A DNA stretch of 58,869 bases from Candidatus Yanofskybacteria bacterium RIFCSPLOWO2_02_FULL_44_18 (lineage in GTDB: Bacteria > Patescibacteriota > Minisyncoccia > 2-02-FULL-40-12 > GWA2-44-9). The translations under genes and the position numbers were made by a program. The notes under the pieces were generated by a model. It was given only the letters and a program-made list of their open reading frames with translations. It was not told the DNA's origin and ran no database searches. Shown in pieces: positions 139 to 49,195 of this stretch. The stretch covers positions 63,156 through 122,024 of the forward strand of contig MGKT01000002.1 in the NCBI GenBank assembly GCA_001794755.1, read 5' to 3'. Within the stretch, counting starts at the first letter, position 1. Each line of letters starts with the position of its first letter.

Positions 139-388
139 GAATCAGTTTTCTTGACTGCTGTGCATTGGTACAAGCGGTATAGCCGTTTGCTCTGTGCCGG
201 TCGTTTGAACCGACTTTGAACCAAGGTCGGTGAGACCGCGGTCCTTAGGGATTGCCACCTCTTACGGCCTTCGGGATGGCTACGCCATCTGTCTCGCCGT
301 GAGAGTGTCAATCGTAAAGAACACGACCGGGCTTCGCCCTTTGACATCTCACGGCGAGACACCTCCAGTGTTCAATCAAAACTGATTC
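139..388 (+). ncRNA. structured repeat unit U1
   Basis: Outer helix GAATCAGTTTT(139-149)/AAAACTGATTC(378-388); inner helix GACTGC(153-158)/GCGGTC(238-243); nested hairpin GTCTCGCCGTGAGA...TCTCACGGCGAGAC. Confidence 0.75.
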
Positions 389-390
389 AG

Positions 391-467
391 ATGAGCGAGT
401 TGTTCCAACTCGCTCATCGCTCTTTTTCTGGATCTCAATAATGGGGTGCAGAAAAAGAGTTCTTTCC
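391..467 (+). ncRNA. trailing domain after U1 (hairpin + enclosed stem)
   Basis: GATGAGCGAGTTGTTCCAACTCGCTCATC hairpin, then CTCTTTTTCTG...CAGAAAAAGAG 11-bp stem, then GTTCTTT. Confidence 0.65.
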
Positions 468-474
468 AAATCGT

Positions 475-747
475 TCCGGTTTGCTTGACCATGTGTGCGA
501 TGGTAATCACCACAGCAGCATGTGCGGATTGCTTGAACTGTTTCTGTTTCAGAAACAGCGAGATCCGTGGTCATTAGTCTCGGCCAAGCCCCGCTCGTTA
601 CGAGTCCGTTACGACCCCGTAACGATGCCGTCACGCCCCTTCGGGGACGGGCTTTGCCCTCGTGACGCCACCGGCTCCGCCTTCGTTACGGGGTCCGGCT
701 CCGCCTCGTAACGGACTCGTGACGACCAGACTTCTATCCAAACCGGA
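475..747 (+). ncRNA. structured repeat unit U2
   Basis: Outer helix TCCGGTTT(475-482)/AAACCGGA(740-747); inner helix GACCATG(487-493)/CGTGGTC(566-572); nested CGAGTCCGTTACGA...TCGTAACGGACTCG. Confidence 0.8.
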
Positions 748-755
748 CAATTTTC

Positions 756-1017
756 TTTAGTCTGCTTGATCGCACTAACCCATAGTGTGCGTATGGAGCG
801 GTGTGGTTCATCACTGCACGGCCATACGGCTGCCGCAGAACTTCCTCTGTTCCGGAGAAAGCGAGGCAGCGGTCCCAAGAGTGAGCCGGACCCGTTGACC
901 CTTTGGGTCAACTGATTCCAACTGAAATCAACTGAATTCAACCCAAAGTGCGTGTTGAATTTTCGCCTTCGGCCAGTTGATTTACAGTTGAAATCCCAGG
1001 CCTCTATCCAGACTGAA
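756..1017 (+). ncRNA. structured repeat unit U3
   Basis: Outer helix TTTAGTCTG(756-764)/CAGACTGAA(1009-1017); inner helix GATCGC(768-773)/GCGGTC(869-874). Confidence 0.78.
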
Positions 1018-1021
1018 CAAT

Positions 1022-1286
1022 TTCTTCACTTTGCTTGACCGCGCTTGTTCGCAAGTGTTGGTAAACTACCGCACTACGCATAAGCGTTGCCGTTGAGGTT
1101 TCCTTGCATCAAGAAAACCAAGGCAGCGGTCCAGAGCGGATGCCGTACCCCGGGACGGATAATTTCCGAATTTTACGGGCTTTCAGCCCTCTGAAATTCT
1201 GAAATCCCTACGGGAATCGGCGCAGACGCCTTTTCAGAATTTCAGAAAATTCGGAAATTCCAGAGGCATCAATCCAACGTGAAGAA
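1022..1286 (+). ncRNA. structured repeat unit U4
   Basis: Outer helix TTCTTCAC(1022-1029)/GTGAAGAA(1279-1286); inner helix GACCGC(1037-1042)/GCGGTC(1126-1131); nested AATTTCCGAATTTT...AAAATTCGGAAATT. Confidence 0.78.
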
Positions 1287-1357
1287 GGCGAGTGTTTCAC
1301 TCGCCACTCTCTTTCCGAGCCTTACATTGTAGGACTTGGAATAAAGGGTTCTTTACA
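1286..1357 (+). ncRNA. trailing domain after U4
   Basis: GGCGAGTGTTTCACTCGCC hairpin, CTCTTTCC...GGAATAAAGGG weaker stem, GTTCTTT. Confidence 0.5.
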
Positions 1358-1363
1358 TTTTTT

Positions 1364-1700
1364 TCCGTTTGCTTGACCATGCTACGCTTGCTGTGTGCGA
1401 GCGAGCCGGTGTGGTATCTACCATCACCGTTCGGCTGCCGGTACACTTATTCTGATTCAGAATAAGTTAGGCAGTGGTCCATAGCCTGCGCCTAACCACT
1501 CACAGCATTCGCTGTGAGTCCCAGCTCACATCAGCGTGACGTATCCGTCACGTCCCCGTGAGATCCCTTCGGGACCGGGTTTCACCCTTCTCACGGGGAC
1601 CGGCTTCGCCTCGTGACGGATACCGGGCAAAGAACGCCCTCGTCACGCCGACCGGCAAAGAACGCCTTGTGAGCCGTGTAAAGGCTTCTATCCAAACGGA
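1364..1700 (+). ncRNA. structured repeat unit U5
   Basis: Outer helix TCCGTTT(1364-1370)/AAACGGA(1694-1700); inner helix GACCAT(1375-1380)/GTGGTC(1474-1479); four-step nested hairpin with side hairpins. Confidence 0.8.
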
Positions 1701-1703
1701 AGT

Positions 1704-1957
1704 ATCCATTTTGCTTGACAATCGGCGCGGATCGTCGGGTTGTATCTAACCGTCGTTTCGCTCCGGCGAGATCTGTGACCGGTTTTGTTCCAAAATCGGT
1801 AGATCTTGGTCCATAGCAAATGCGAGGACCCGCACTTTGTACGGACGGGTGACATCGAGCGTAACCGTCCAAAAGACGGACCGGGCTTCGCCCTCGGTTA
1901 CGCTCGACCGGTGCTAATGCACCTTGTCACTCCGTTTCGTCTCTATCCAAAATGGAT
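1704..1957 (+). ncRNA. structured repeat unit U6
   Basis: Outer helix ATCCATTTT(1704-1712)/AAAATGGAT(1949-1957); nested GTGACATCGAGCGTAACCG...CGGTTACGCTCGA...TGTCAC. Confidence 0.75.
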
Positions 1958-1959
1958 AC

Positions 1960-2037
1960 CGGGCAGTGTACCACTGCCCACTCTCGTTCTGGTCCTGACA
2001 ATGGTGTCGGGTTCAGAACACGGAGTGGTTCTTTTCA
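1960..2037 (+). ncRNA. trailing domain after U6, leader of the AAA+ gene
   Basis: GGGCAGTGTACCACTGCCC hairpin, CACTC..GTTCTG [CCTGAC..GTCGGG] CAGAAC..GAGTG stem, GGTTCTTTT. Confidence 0.6.
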
Positions 2038-2063
2038 ATATTGTGTATGGAGGCACGCATCGC

Positions 2064-3206
2064 ATGGCCGACTTACTTCTCATTCGCGCCCACAATGGCG
2101 ATGGCCTGACGTGGAAGTTTGTCGACCAGACGATGGTTGGCTACAAGATCGTGCTCGATCAGCCACCGACGATCGCCATCTCCGATGGCGATATCTGGCA
2201 GGTCGAGCTGGTCAATACTTCCAGCGTCAAGGGCAAACGGCAAAAGATTGCCACCGTCCGGCTCGTGGCCAAGGTGCAGCAGCTGAAAGCCTGGGAGAAG
2301 ATAGCTGAACTGCCGGATCATTGGATTGATCCGGTTGATCTGAAGTGTATTCTCACATGGCTGCACAGCGGCACCGACATCATCCTGATCGGACCCAAGG
2401 GCAGCGGCAAGACAAGCCTCGGGTTCGTCATCGCGCGCACCCTCGGCTGGCAGGATCCGTACAAGGTCGACGTCTACACGATCAAGCGGACGACCGACCT
2501 CTTCGGCACCGACGCCGCTCACCAAGGTTCGACGCTGTTCGTCCGGTCGGGACTACTCGATTACATCGAGCGGGCCCAGATCGCGCTCGAGAGCGGCCTG
2601 GATACCCATTTCCTGGTCATCCTCGACGAGATCAACCGCGTCCATGCCAAGGTCAACGAGAGTCTTCACGGACTTTTCGATGACACGCGACAGGTGACGG
2701 TGGTCACGACCGAAGGATCGAAGACGATCAAGCTGCCGCCGAACCTTCACGTTGTCGGGACCATGAACATGGGCGCTGAATATCTCGGCGTTCATGGTCT
2801 GGACGAGGCACTGAAGGATCGGTTTGCGCCGGTGAAAGTCCGGCCGATGCCTGTCGACTACGAAGTGACAAAACTGGTGCGCGAGACGAAAGTCCTCGAA
2901 CAGCAGGCGTTGGCAGTCGTGAAGGTCGCTCAGGCGTTGCGCGAATCAGCGACCGGCGGACAGATCTCGTTCGCGCCCAGTTACCGGGCTTGTCGGAATG
3001 TGGCGCGGCTCCTGAATCACGGCCTGGACCTCAAGACGGCAATCATCAAGGGGTTCCTGGGCTGGTATGAGGGAGAACTCGCGCTCGATCCGCGAGGCGA
3101 GGTGGCGCAACCGAACACTGAAATGGCGAAGGCCTATTCGGCGTTGCGGATGCGCGGCGTGGCTCAGGCCAAAGACCTGATCCAGGTCGCGGCTCGTGAA
3201 ATGTAG
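2064..3206 (+). CDS. MoxR-family AAA+ ATPase
   Basis: Within ORF 1806..3206; ATG at 2064 preceded by GGAGG; Walker A GPKGSGKTS, Walker B VILDEIN, arginine-finger-like DRFAP. The upstream part of the ORF overlaps U6 and is unlikely to be coding. Confidence 0.85.
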   Translation: MADLLLIRAHNGDGLTWKFVDQTMVGYKIVLDQPPTIAISDGDIWQVELVNTSSVKGKRQKIATVRLVAKVQQLKAWEKIAELPDHWIDPVDLKCILTWLHSGTDIILIGPKGSGKTSLGFVIARTLGWQDPYKVDVYTIKRTTDLFGTDAAHQGSTLFVRSGLLDYIERAQIALESGLDTHFLVILDEINRVHAKVNESLHGLFDDTRQVTVVTTEGSKTIKLPPNLHVVGTMNMGAEYLGVHGLDEALKDRFAPVKVRPMPVDYEVTKLVRETKVLEQQALAVVKVAQALRESATGGQISFAPSYRACRNVARLLNHGLDLKTAIIKGFLGWYEGELALDPRGEVAQPNTEMAKAYSALRMRGVAQAKDLIQVAAREM

Positions 3207-3469
3207 TGCGTTTGCTTGTCAGCCGAGAAGATCTTTGGTTTAAATCGGCTAAATGCGACCAGCGTTCGCTTTACGCGGGGCTTCCGACTATTACCGATCT
3301 GGTAATAGTACGGCCTTGGTCCACAGACCTTGCCAGGGCTCGGCGCGGTAGCCGACAAGTGACACACCGTTACGGACTCCCTCCGGGGAGCTTCGGGGCT
3401 TCGCCCTCCGTAACGGTGCCGGTCCTTACGGACCTTGTCACTTGTATCGCTTCTATCCATACGCATTAC
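3203..3469 (+). ncRNA. structured repeat unit U7
   Basis: Outer helix GTAGTGCGT(3203-3211, containing the AAA+ stop codon)/ACGCATTAC(3461-3469); AGCCGA..TCGGCT; nested CAAGTGACACACCGTTACGGA...TCCGTAACGGTG...TGTCACTTG; inner P1 not clear. Confidence 0.7.
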
Positions 3470-3470
3470 T

Positions 3471-3542
3471 CGGGGACGTGTGATTCATGCGTCCCCACCC
3501 TTTCCAAGTATTTTTTAGAAAAATTTTTGGAAAGGGTGTTTC
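3471..3542 (+). ncRNA. trailing domain after U7
   Basis: GGGGACGTGTGATTCATGCGTCCCC hairpin then CCCTTTCCAA...TTGGAAAGGG stem. Confidence 0.55.
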
Positions 3543-3866
3543 CTTGACTGGCTCTGTATCAGAGCGCACAGCTGTGCAGGATCGGTATTCCACCGTTTCA
3601 CGCACTGCGTGGTCGTTTGAACTGATTTTGATTCAAGATCAGTGAGACCGCGGTCCGGAGAGATTGCTTGAAGGGTCTTGCTTACGCAAGGCATGTTCCG
3701 TGCCAGCTCTCGCAAGAGCGAGACCACTACGTTTCCGGCACGGAACCTGCAACAACTTCAGCTGCAACCCTCTCAGTCGAAACCCCCTTGTCCTCTGTAG
3801 CTTTGGCGAAGGAGGGTTGCTCGCTGTTTCAGCGAGCTCACCTTAACAATTTTCTCAACAAGGAGG
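3535..3866 (+). ncRNA. structured repeat unit U8 and trailing hairpins, leader of the vWA gene
   Basis: CTTGACTGG...GCGGTCC; GGTC[CTGATTTTGATTCAAGATCAG]GACC arm like U1; GTTCCGTGCC...GGCACGGAAC; GCAACCCTC(3764-3772)/GAGGGTTGC(3812-3820); GCTCGCTGTTTCAGCGAGC. Confidence 0.6.
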
Positions 3867-5573: not shown

Positions 5574-5612
5574 GAGGGTGCTTGACCAACGCGGTCGGGC
5601 ACCCTCTTTTTT
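5574..5612 (+). terminator. rho-independent terminator
   Basis: GAGGGTGCTTGACCAACGCGGTCGGGCACCCTCTTTTTT. Confidence 0.85.
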
Positions 5613-38303: not shown

Positions 38304-39017
38304 ATGGAATTTAAAGAAGCAACTAAAATTCTCGATGCCATCCTCTCCAAAAAAAATCCACCATATTTTAACAGCTCGTGGATTTTAAAAAATGCTCCAA
38401 AAGTTTATCGATTCATTTGGACAAATATCAGAACAGAAAATAGAGATATAGATTGGGATAAAGTAACTCGATCCCTTAATCACAGATTTTGGAAAAGATG
38501 GCAACATCCCAGGAAAAGACCAAAACAATACTGGGATAAAAAAGAAGTTCATCGAGTATTAAAGATATATAAAGATAAGCTATATACATTTATAACTGCC
38601 CTAAATGACGAGGATAAATATCTTAGAGATATTATAAGCGTATCCCTGGTTAGACTAGCTCAAAATGGCAATAAATCAGCCAGTAAAGAACTCTCTGAGT
38701 TATTACGATACACAATAGACCATTGGATAGAGTATTGCTGGAAACTCAATCGTTGGCGAGGATATGAAGACAAAATTCAAGAAAAGATCGATTGCTGTAT
38801 CCGTCGCTATCGATATACCGGATCTTTCATGGCTTATCTGTTTAAAACTCTAGAGTATTCAAGCTGGGGTTTCAGGCTATTACATAAACACTCTTTAGAT
38901 GAATATATACCCGGAAGAACCGACAAAAGACGGATTGATAACGTAGTCCAAGATCCAGAAACAGGAGAAATTGGAATGTATGACAGGGCTAACCAATCTG
39001 GGATGCCGGATCTATAG
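38304..39017 (+). CDS. hypothetical protein
   Basis: 237-aa ORF, convergent overlap with recombinase 3' end. Confidence 0.6.
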   Translation: MEFKEATKILDAILSKKNPPYFNSSWILKNAPKVYRFIWTNIRTENRDIDWDKVTRSLNHRFWKRWQHPRKRPKQYWDKKEVHRVLKIYKDKLYTFITALNDEDKYLRDIISVSLVRLAQNGNKSASKELSELLRYTIDHWIEYCWKLNRWRGYEDKIQEKIDCCIRRYRYTGSFMAYLFKTLEYSSWGFRLLHKHSLDEYIPGRTDKRRIDNVVQDPETGEIGMYDRANQSGMPDL

Positions 39018-40332
39018 TAACAATTTTCTTAGTAAACTTTATCTTTGACTTGAAGCATCCCATCAATTCACGTTTCTCCTCATTAGCGCCTTCTTTGAGA
39101 ATATATTTGGCATAAGTTTTTAAATCTATGTCTTTATGTTTTGTCTTCTTATCAGAAAATCCTAGAACTCCTTTTTGGAACTTATTAAATCTTTTAAGTT
39201 CATCCTCAAATTTAATCTGTATTCCGGAATTGTTAAAATCAATTTGGTCTAGGAGCTTAATTAGCTGATCTATCAAATCTTCTTCTCGCAGGTACTCGTT
39301 TTTACAATGTCTATCCTTAGATCTGCCACAGCCATAGTATATGTATTTAGCTGTAGTCCCATCCTTAAGCTGTTTATACTTCTCCTCGGCTGATATCATT
39401 GAGCTACATAAGCCGCAGACCATTAATTTGGTAAAGGCGAATTCATGGCTGGTCCTAATAATATTATCCCTTTTAAGCTGTTCTTGGACTTTATCAAATA
39501 GCTCTTTATCGATAACCGGTTCATGTTTACCCTGGTACCATTGATTACTCTTTTTAGGATATTCGAAGATTCCGTAATAGAAAGGATTTTGAAGCATCCT
39601 AAATATATTGCTTAGAGCCATATTATGGTTGCCCACCGATTTGAAGTTTAATTCAAACTTAAGCCAATGATGTATCTTTCTGCCCGACCATTTCTCATGA
39701 GCCATTTTCTCAAATATCTTTTTAACAATCGGCGATCGATCAGGATCTAGGATCACCTGGCACTTTTTGTCCATGTGCTTTTGATTTAAGTATCCTATTG
39801 GGGCCACTCCCGGCCAGAGGCCCATCTCAACTCTTGTCCGTAGTCCTCTCTTTACGTTAATACCCCGGTTATCGTTTTCTAATTTAGCTTGAGAGCCTAG
39901 TATCATAAGAAGGAACTTCTCATTTGGATTATTTGAGAATCTTTGACCATATGTTCTGATTTCTTTTAAGATCCCCGCATCCATAAGATCTACTATCTTT
40001 CCTAAGTCTCCTGCATTTCTAGATATACGATCTGGTGCCCAGGTTAATATGCCGTCAAACTTATTCTGCTGAATATCCAGTATTATCTCGTTGAAGATTG
40101 GTCTTTGGCCTGTTTCTTTAGCTGAATGAGACTCTCTTTTTACCGTAACGATCTCCAATTGCTCTCTTTCGGCCAAAAGGAGCATCTCCTTGATCTGACT
40201 ATCAATAGAGAGTATTTGTTTTTCTTCTGATTCTGATGATTTCCTGGCATAGAGGCAATACCTTACCTTTGCTGGTATTGCCTGTGGCTGGGTCCCTGAA
40301 AGCCCTTGGATATTGTGATTATTCATATACAC
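38989..40332 (-). CDS. large serine recombinase
   Basis: YARKSSESEEKQILSIDSQI, PDRISRNAGDL, recombinase domain, zinc ribbon CGLCSS..CGRSKDRHC. Confidence 0.93.
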   Translation of the reverse strand: MYMNNHNIQGLSGTQPQAIPAKVRYCLYARKSSESEEKQILSIDSQIKEMLLLAEREQLEIVTVKRESHSAKETGQRPIFNEIILDIQQNKFDGILTWAPDRISRNAGDLGKIVDLMDAGILKEIRTYGQRFSNNPNEKFLLMILGSQAKLENDNRGINVKRGLRTRVEMGLWPGVAPIGYLNQKHMDKKCQVILDPDRSPIVKKIFEKMAHEKWSGRKIHHWLKFELNFKSVGNHNMALSNIFRMLQNPFYYGIFEYPKKSNQWYQGKHEPVIDKELFDKVQEQLKRDNIIRTSHEFAFTKLMVCGLCSSMISAEEKYKQLKDGTTAKYIYYGCGRSKDRHCKNEYLREEDLIDQLIKLLDQIDFNNSGIQIKFEDELKRFNKFQKGVLGFSDKKTKHKDIDLKTYAKYILKEGANEEKRELMGCFKSKIKFTKKIVTIDPASQIG

Positions 40333-40442
40333 AAGGGATGACGTAATCCCCTAAAGGAGTCCAGAGCGTCCCAGTTGGTAAGTTAAAATTGGATTAATAG
40401 CCTTCTTTTTGTTAGAATTTTCTAACAACCTAATGACCTAAA

Positions 40443-40570
40443 CCCGGTGACTTCATTGGGCATGGCACAAAACCACCTGCATACCAAACTTGTCGTTTGG
40501 CTTCCACGCATGTGGTTATAGAGGAAACTCTATAAAAGAGCTTATGCTCTAAGCCAGGCGACTTTTTTTA
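40443..40570 (+). ncRNA. structured RNA copy A, left of DGR
   Basis: four hairpins matching copy B with compensatory changes: CCAAAC/GTTTGG, TTATAGAG-GAAA-CTCTATAA, AGAGC/GCTCT; ends in T7. Confidence 0.75.
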
Positions 40571-41620
40571 TTGTTTGTTTAGCCGAAAGAAGATCTGGTT
40601 TTCAAGGTCTTGTTGAAGAATAAAAGAATTACTATGGCTTAAGATCCCCAGATAAGAATGGATGGTATGGTCAAGTGAGTCATAAGACAATGATCCTTGA
40701 TTATACGATTTAATTTTTTCGTAAATCTTGGCAAAAATTCTTTTCTCGGTTTTTATCCTTGGCAGTATGAAGTGTGGGAAACAAACATATCCAAGGAAAT
40801 CAACGCCTTGGCTTAATTTTCGAACCGTAATTTTATTGGGATGTAATTCAAGTTTCAACCTATCTTTCAGAAAATCTTTTATTAAATCCTGGATTTCAAA
40901 ACAATGCTCTCTTTGAGGATGAAGTATCACAAAATCATCGGCGTAACGAATGTAATGTTTTTCGTGAAGTTCGTGCTTCATAAACTGGTCGAGCTCATTG
41001 AGATAAATATTGGCAAAAAGTTGCGAGGTCAGGTTGCCTATCGGCAATCCCTTAGGCTCACTGGGATCTACTGTACGATCCGAACTAAAACTAGATATAA
41101 CTTCCTCAAGAAGTCGTCGAGTGTGTATGCTCCTAATACGTCCGAAAATTATATCTATGAGAATTTTTTGATCAACACTTGCAAAAAACTTTCTGATATC
41201 ACATTTCAAAATCCAACATGGCTGAGTATTGTTTTTGCTGACTATTCTTGCGTATCGGATAAGTTGTTCCACACCACGATGAGTTCCTTTATCTTTTCGA
41301 CACGAATAGGAATCATGGATAAAAGTTTTATCAAAGATTGGATTAACATGCTTAACGATGGCGTGATGGAGTACACGATCTCTAACCAGGGCTTTGTGGA
41401 TGTGGCGTAGTTTTGGGTCTTGCACGAAAAATGATGTATATCCGGAATGCTTGTAAGTTTTATCGGCCAGCTCTTGATGAAGCTCCCAAAGATTATCTTC
41501 TAAATTGCGTTCAAACTCTATAGTATCCAGCCGGTCCTTTTTGCCAATTCTAAATTCTTTCCAAGAGGTGATTAAATTATCGATCTTAACTATTTCGTCA
41601 AAAAGATTATGAACAACCAT
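40568..41620 (-). CDS. DGR-type reverse transcriptase
   Basis: GLPIGNLTSQLFANIYLNELD (DGR-like xGxxxSQ), YIRYADDFVIL catalytic motif; start MVVHNL at 41620 within ORF 40568..41701. Confidence 0.93.
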   Translation of the reverse strand: MVVHNLFDEIVKIDNLITSWKEFRIGKKDRLDTIEFERNLEDNLWELHQELADKTYKHSGYTSFFVQDPKLRHIHKALVRDRVLHHAIVKHVNPIFDKTFIHDSYSCRKDKGTHRGVEQLIRYARIVSKNNTQPCWILKCDIRKFFASVDQKILIDIIFGRIRSIHTRRLLEEVISSFSSDRTVDPSEPKGLPIGNLTSQLFANIYLNELDQFMKHELHEKHYIRYADDFVILHPQREHCFEIQDLIKDFLKDRLKLELHPNKITVRKLSQGVDFLGYVCFPHFILPRIKTEKRIFAKIYEKIKSYNQGSLSYDSLDHTIHSYLGILSHSNSFILQQDLENQIFFRLNKQ

Positions 41621-41989
41621 AAAAATACTGGACAGTTTAATTTGGAAACTCCGATCTTCAAAAAGACATACGACTTTTTGAAAGAATTCTACATTTTTCA
41701 ATTAGACTTTCCAAAGAAAGATCGCTACAGCCTGGGACAACGATGTGAGACTTATCTGCTCGGCGTACTTGAGGGTATCATGCTTGCCAGCCAGACGAGT
41801 AAAGATAGGAAATATCTTATTCTTCAGCAGGCCAGTGGCAAGTTAGATATGCTTAAGGTTTTCGTGAGATTAGCCGGGGACATCAAGATTCTCAGCGATA
41901 GCCGATACATAAAGTGTCAGAATCAAATTCAAGAAATCGGTAAGATGCTGGGTGGCTGGATGAAGTCTACCCACGAAGATCAGTTTTAA
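41609..41989 (+). CDS. avd: DGR accessory protein Avd-like (four-helix bundle)
   Basis: 126 aa, basic helical protein next to DGR RT and TR (KTYDFLKEFYIFQLDFPKKDRYSLGQRCETYLLGVLEGI). Confidence 0.8.
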   Translation: MNNHKNTGQFNLETPIFKKTYDFLKEFYIFQLDFPKKDRYSLGQRCETYLLGVLEGIMLASQTSKDRKYLILQQASGKLDMLKVFVRLAGDIKILSDSRYIKCQNQIQEIGKMLGGWMKSTHEDQF

Positions 41990-48874: not shown

Positions 48875-49057
48875 TTTCATAGGGTGCTTGGGCACTTGGA
48901 TTCCTTGATTCTTGTTGGTCCCCTTGGGTTTTCGAAAAAATTTTATACTTCCCCTAATTAGTGAGTTGGCAACTTGCTTTACTTAGTTTTATGTCTAAGC
49001 TATGGTGGACGCCATGGTCGATATTTGATAAAATTCCCTTAACAATTCATTGCCTAA

Positions 49058-49195
49058 CCCCATTGATACCCTCAGTGGATATGGCATAAAACCCACCTGC
49101 ATACTGAACCCGTCGTTCAGCTCCATGCAGGTGGTCCATATCCGAAAGGGTATGGGAGGGCGCAAGCCCTCGGCTAGCGGCGGGCTTTGTGTTTT
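49058..49195 (+). ncRNA. structured RNA copy B, right of DGR targets
   Basis: CCATTGA/TCAGTGG, CCACCTGCAT/ATGCAGGTGG, CTGAAC/GTTCAG, CCATATCC-GAAA-GGGTATGG, GGGC-GCAA-GCCC; same layout as copy A. Confidence 0.78.

Follow-up and report, generated by a model that had tools for sequence, protein, structure and literature searches.

The stretch of DNA analysed here, referred to as the window, covers 58,869 nucleotides of the genome of Candidatus Yanofskybacteria bacterium RIFCSPLOWO2_02_FULL_44_18 (C2:63156-122024) and opens within a tandem array of structured units that probably belongs to a retron-type system of Patescibacteria, in which one reverse transcriptase (RT) would serve nine msr-msd-like templates acting as sensors on an effector composed of a MoxR-group AAA+ ATPase and a von Willebrand factor A (vWA) protein. 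The narrower statement, namely that a retron-type RT is accompanied by an array of templates, is very probable. The computed features are the RNA structures, the retron-type RT, the conserved gene order and, in relatives, a constant msr next to a replaced msd. A retron is described as comprising one RT, one noncoding RNA and one effector; what differs here from known retrons is the array, the effector and the active site of this copy, while the RT and the RNA anatomy are of retron type. The initial annotation, restricted to the window, had described the units as a family of structured RNA (or structured single-stranded DNA, ssDNA) that it could not identify, because the RT gene that explains them lies beyond the left end of the window. 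The units are indeed multi-copy and covarying, and the aside about ssDNA was apt, yet they are better read as retron-like msr-msd templates.

Outer and inner structure of the units

Nine units (U0-U8) were counted where at least eight had been claimed, and a genome-wide search of the 631 kb (9 contigs) located them only at the RT locus. U0 begins left of the window, in the extending DNA L001, with its a1 and msr at L001:12982-13099, and starts 22 bases past the RT stop codon, the array thus beginning right after the RT gene. The 3′ end of U0 (1-47, + strand) comprises the end of the msd, CTATC and the a2 AAAACTGATTC; the fragment at 31-46, previously taken as a sign of an array extending leftwards, is this a2 end, and 26 bases of U0 are masked. 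The other eight units lie on the + strand at 139-3789, and the gene order is RT, U0-U6, MoxR, U7 and U8, vWA. In U1 (139-388), a1 at 139-149 is followed by an msr reaching up to GGTCC at 240, the msd, and a2 at 378-388. U2 (475-748), U3 (756-1016), U4 (1022-1287) and U5 (1362-1702) come next, then U6 directly after U5 (1703-1958), U7 (3203-3469), whose a1 overlaps the MoxR stop codon, and U8 (3530-3789).

The anatomy of the units is that of known retrons, with an a1/a2 helix, a conserved stem-loop scaffold (msr) and a variable long hairpin (msd), the latter present in every unit. The recurrent strings of U1-U8 and the seven outer helices of U1-U7 listed in the initial annotation were all recovered in place. 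Covariation of the outer helix was tested without folding, by comparing the 14 bases before CTTG with the bases after ATC and permuting the ends. Among 13 units (U0-U8 and four of one relative), the mean score is 17.0 when the 5′ and 3′ ends come from one unit and 7.9 when they are mismatched, and 0/200,000 permutations reach the observed sum; a second set, of 13 other units taken from two further genomes, gave 15.0 against 8.9, again with 0/200,000 permutations. Thus, in two independent sets, the ends of a unit (a1/a2) are complementary to each other and not to the ends of other units. The outer helix had been confined to U1-U7, for which it holds, but U8 has one too (AAGGGTGTTTC/GAAACCCCCTT), with one mismatch and with AGTC replacing ATCC. 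The second helix (GACC/GGTC) covaries as had been proposed, and so does the 9-bp triloop hairpin that it encloses: over 18 base pairs in 13 aligned msr parts, 88% of the cells are paired, compared with 71.7% in shuffles and 32-46% when the alignment is slid, and both sides have changed in 12/18 pairs.

Small side hairpins (GGCTTCGCC-like) are confined to the 3′ arm of the msd main stem in U1, U2, U4, U5, U6 and U7. An invariant G within YUYG lies next to a1 in all aligned units, the AGC context being absent. Moreover, TG-NNN-CA closes 36/51 triloop hairpins with at least eight pairs in the window and in the unit regions of relatives, these tips belonging to two kinds of hairpin, the msr hairpin present in every unit and one after a2, named H1. 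The common tip suggests that the msr hairpin and H1 are read by one protein, most likely the RT, a binding that is predicted.

An Rfam scan of the array at gathering and permissive thresholds returned no relevant match and none convincing below threshold, which agrees with the failure of the initial annotation to recognise a known family. Strong structure outside any Rfam family is what would be expected from a stand-alone structured RNA class unrelated to the RT. Yet the units of this genome occur at the RT locus only and those of all relatives found lie between RT, MoxR and vWA genes, and such a class is extremely improbable.

The reverse transcriptase and its relatives

The RT gene (P0001, 437 aa) lies outside the window at L001:11646-12959, corresponding to window positions -1510 to -197, and its product is retron-type by profile, by sequence comparison with solved structures and by fold. 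It matches the PADLOC RT_XIII profile (7.6e-33) and many other retron types, as well as NCBIfam retron_St85_RT (3.7e-34, below the family cut-off). When the PDB was searched with a profile of 11 family members, the 12 best matches were all retron RTs, with Ec86 RT at 4.1e-30, and the 18 best fold matches of an AlphaFold model of P0001 (predicted local distance difference test, pLDDT, 75; predicted template modelling score 0.66) were again all retron RTs. NAXXH and VTG have been named as retron marks (PMC6868368); the first, in region X, reads NAGHH in P0001 and NAETH in the relative L002 (Candidatus Uhrbacteria RIFOXYC2_FULL_47_19), and the second, at the start of region Y, reads IVTGLVV in P0001 and ALGLV in L002. 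In RT family and in these marks the system resembles the retrons Ec86/Eco1, Ec67/Eco2, Ec78/Eco7 and Eco8 and the St85-family RT. Among phage records, plasmids and viral contigs, the RTs recovered were all distant ones, at 21-28% identity.

The order RT, units, MoxR, units, vWA recurs in nine other Patescibacteria genomes: L002 and L055, L057, L058, L059, L061, L062, L063 and L064. The L055-L064 loci were drawn from a sample of the class of L002, L056 and L060 being cut by contig ends. Two RT subfamilies can be told apart by their identity to P0001, 40-51% in one and 28-31% in the other. With a covariance model trained on two loci, units were also recognised in L055, L056, L057 and L058, which had no part in its construction; the best E-value per test locus ranged from 3.9e-6 to 5.3e-11. 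Nine units are found in the window locus and in L055, six in L002, five in L058, three in L059, and one plus a remnant in L057; in the distant subfamily (L061-L064), repeated cores suggest 2-3 units each, with less sure boundaries.

The best PADLOC type varies among members, being XIII for the window, L002, L061 and L063, VI for L055 and L059, and X for L064, and assignment to a single PADLOC type was rejected for this reason. Type XIII retrons have ARM and WHSWIM proteins as partners, unlike the MoxR AAA+ and HExxH/vWA proteins encoded here. Known retrons differ further in that one RT can here have as many as nine msr-msd cassettes, which come after its gene and around those of the effector. 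They also differ in the AAA+ and HExxH/vWA partners and in the RNase HI that some members carry, either fused to the RT (L055:10634-12184, - strand; PF13456 2e-26) or encoded just upstream of it (L057:12258-12680, - strand). Known retrons depend on host RNase H1 (PMC8989520), and the fusion of RNase H to the RT in one member is of direct relevance to the release of the reverse-transcribed DNA (RT-DNA) from its template. In the literature searched, neither a retron with several msr-msd cassettes per RT nor such arrays in the candidate phyla radiation were described; the main classification (10.1093/nar/gkaa1149) was outside that search, so an earlier mention is possible.

Several observations weigh against the proposed system. 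The catalytic box of P0001 is WTDN and not YxDD, the second catalytic Asp being replaced by Asn, and this RT copy may therefore make little or no DNA. The TAGC priming motif was not found, the sole invariant G beside a1 being that of YUYG; in its box and in this missing motif the present copy departs from known retrons. L057 has a single complete unit, so the array is not essential in every member. Finally, neither MoxR nor an AAA+/vWA pair is described as a retron effector in the literature searched.

The replaced Asp could mean that an impaired RT only binds RNA, and that the array RNAs, as structural RNAs bound by the RT and never copied into cDNA, restrain the MoxR/vWA pair. In fact, the second Asp is lost both here and in the RT of L058 (YADN; L058:2576-3811), with RNA structures and partners kept. 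We nevertheless regard an RNA-only role as unlikely: across the 11 members the first Asp is invariant and nine have xDD (YVDD in L002), RNase HI is fused to or beside the RT in two clusters, and the msd keeps a long hairpin in every unit, as would befit a template. Moreover, other polymerases, those of negative-strand RNA viruses, are active with a GDN box. Since the change from D to N occurred twice in a family that keeps all else, simple decay is not obvious either.

Exchangeable msd parts and a candidate effector

In L059 and L002 the msr, with 97-100% identity between units, is a constant scaffold and the msd an exchangeable payload. The three msr halves of L059 are 97-99% identical, whereas its msd halves are unlike, with 54-66% identity in global alignments that include flanks in common and in which unrelated pairs give about 50%. 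In L002, units D and E are exact 366-bp tandem duplicates (L002:13278-14237), and unit F has a near-identical msr and base stem with a different msd; D, E and F possibly capture an array in the course of growth and payload replacement. The msr halves of the window have likewise diverged (58%) with their fold kept, and the msd parts are alike in shape, not in sequence.

The duplicates D and E, and msd parts that have only their shape in common, would suit a simple effect of gene dosage, in which interchangeable units boost one kind of multicopy single-stranded DNA (msDNA) and the msd drifts since a hairpin is all that is needed. Yet an msd that is entirely different beside a near-identical msr, as in L059 and in L002 D/F, requires replacement, for which drift is insufficient, and we hold dosage alone to be rather unlikely. 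Perhaps the system is a modular multi-sensor retron with a constant msr and with msd payloads swapped between or into units, one RT and one AAA+/vWA effector reading many DNA sensors; we put this forward tentatively, as somewhat short of an even chance. The msd hairpins might also be baits, in which recognition words for DNA methyltransferases of phages or for DNA-binding proteins are repeated. Words such as CGTTACG and CGTGACG recur in U2, U5 and LC, and methyltransferases are reported to trigger some retrons (PMC12548924). However, palindromic 6-mers are few, with none in U1, U2, U5 and U7, and the repeats can be accounted for by long hairpins that bear short side hairpins, which makes baits quite improbable.

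Two genes on the + strand encode the partners. P0002 (2064-3206, 380 aa) is a MoxR/NorQ/GvpN-like AAA+ ATPase, identified as MoxR/GvpN-like by profile searches, and the same gene lies beside the RT in relatives. P0003 (3870-5552, 560 aa) has an N-terminal HExxH domain and a C-terminal NorD/CobT-like vWA domain with a metal ion-dependent adhesion site (MIDAS). HExxH is invariant in 10/10 members of the P0003 family, and so is the MIDAS motif DxSxS; the HExxH domain could be a metallopeptidase. Sequence matches of P0003 to CobT and NorD are weak, and the vWA part of its model (pLDDT 81) has its closest fold match in NorD of the NorQD complex (2.2e-9) and also resembles the MIDAS domain of Rea1/MDN1. 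No vWA protein of this kind was found in viral contigs. Together, an AAA+ ring and a vWA partner form a remodelling machine. A MoxR-group AAA+ encoded with a vWA protein is also found in NorQ/NorD, RavA/ViaA and CobS/CobT and in the MoxR-vWA conflict systems (PMC7159879). Unlike all of these, the present system has an RT with its template RNAs as well as the HExxH domain at the N terminus of P0003, and the RT link reported for MoxR-vWA systems in that paper is to diversity-generating retroelements (DGRs), not retrons.

Retrons are reported to hold an effector in check through an RT-msDNA particle and to release it upon phage disturbance (PMC12548924). In the retron-type system proposed here a1 pairs with a2, the msr presents its UG-NNN-CA triloop hairpin, most likely for recognition by the RT, and the long msd hairpin would serve as template, reverse transcription being presumably primed by the invariant G of YUYG beside a1. 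Up to nine different RT-DNA (msDNA) hairpins could thus be made. The pair of MoxR/NorQ AAA+ and HExxH/vWA (NorD-like) proteins would be the effector, controlled by RT-msDNA particles, and phage damage to or modification of any one msDNA may release it. The array would thus act as several parallel sensors on one effector, and several particles differing mainly in their msd would provide a wider set of triggers or a higher dose. The chances that such parallel sensing, with its assumed phage-sensing function, serves defence are about even.

If the proposal is correct, a MoxR/NorQ protein with an HExxH/vWA partner would be a new type of retron effector. A conserved lineage in which each RT has 1-9 diverged templates, and whose genomes measure about 0.6-1.3 Mb, would then be an example of many triggers wired to one effector. 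It would also be a natural route to several RT-DNAs from one enzyme, of use in multiplexed ssDNA production. Should the multi-sensor reading be true, the array would be a reverse-transcribed counterpart of CRISPR-like arrays. The likeness to CRISPR and TIGR arrays, a tandem constant scaffold with a variable payload, is an analogy only, as each payload here, of about 110-210 nt, pairs with itself into a hairpin and is no guide, and searches of the array DNA against phages and its own genome gave no match outside the locus worth keeping.

Spacers and neighbouring features

Most units in the window are followed by a spacer that contains two hairpins (H1, H2), and such spacers also occur in gaps of L002, L055, L058 and L059. 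All window spacers lie on the + strand: after U0 at 48-136 (H1 48-74), after U1 at 389-473 (H1 tip TG-TTC-CA, 390-418), after U4 at 1287-1361 (TG-TTT-CA, 1287-1305), after U6 at 1959-2035 (TG-TAC-CA, 1961-1979) and after U7 at 3470-3529 (TG-ATT-CA, 3472-3496). There is none between U2 and U3 or between U3 and U4, and an H1-type hairpin follows U8 (3805-3845; tip TG-TTT-CA, 3819-3837). Candidate roles of the spacers are processing, partial termination or a second RT site. H1 as a plain intrinsic terminator was rejected: three H1 hairpins score as such, but several relatives lose the U-tract and yet keep the TG-NNN-CA tip.

A promoter-like site lies upstream of the RT open reading frame (ORF) at L001:11579-11607, promoter matches being at chance level, and a strong intrinsic terminator (5574-5606, + strand) stands at the cluster end after the vWA gene; with both, the cluster reads as one unit. 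The two long ORFs left of the RT (L001:4637-11525) are read, from their sequence, as rpoB and rpoC.

No bAvd-like match was found among P0001-P0003, and by Avd and by template and variable repeats the locus is not a DGR. A separate DGR-like cassette lies elsewhere in the window, with an RT at 40571-41701 (- strand) and a bAvd-like gene at 41609-41986 (+ strand). The window also holds a serine recombinase gene (38992-40332, - strand) and two LOOT RNAs (40435-40551 and 49051-49171), and the third RVT_1 gene of the genome is at G000:C4:40071-40700.

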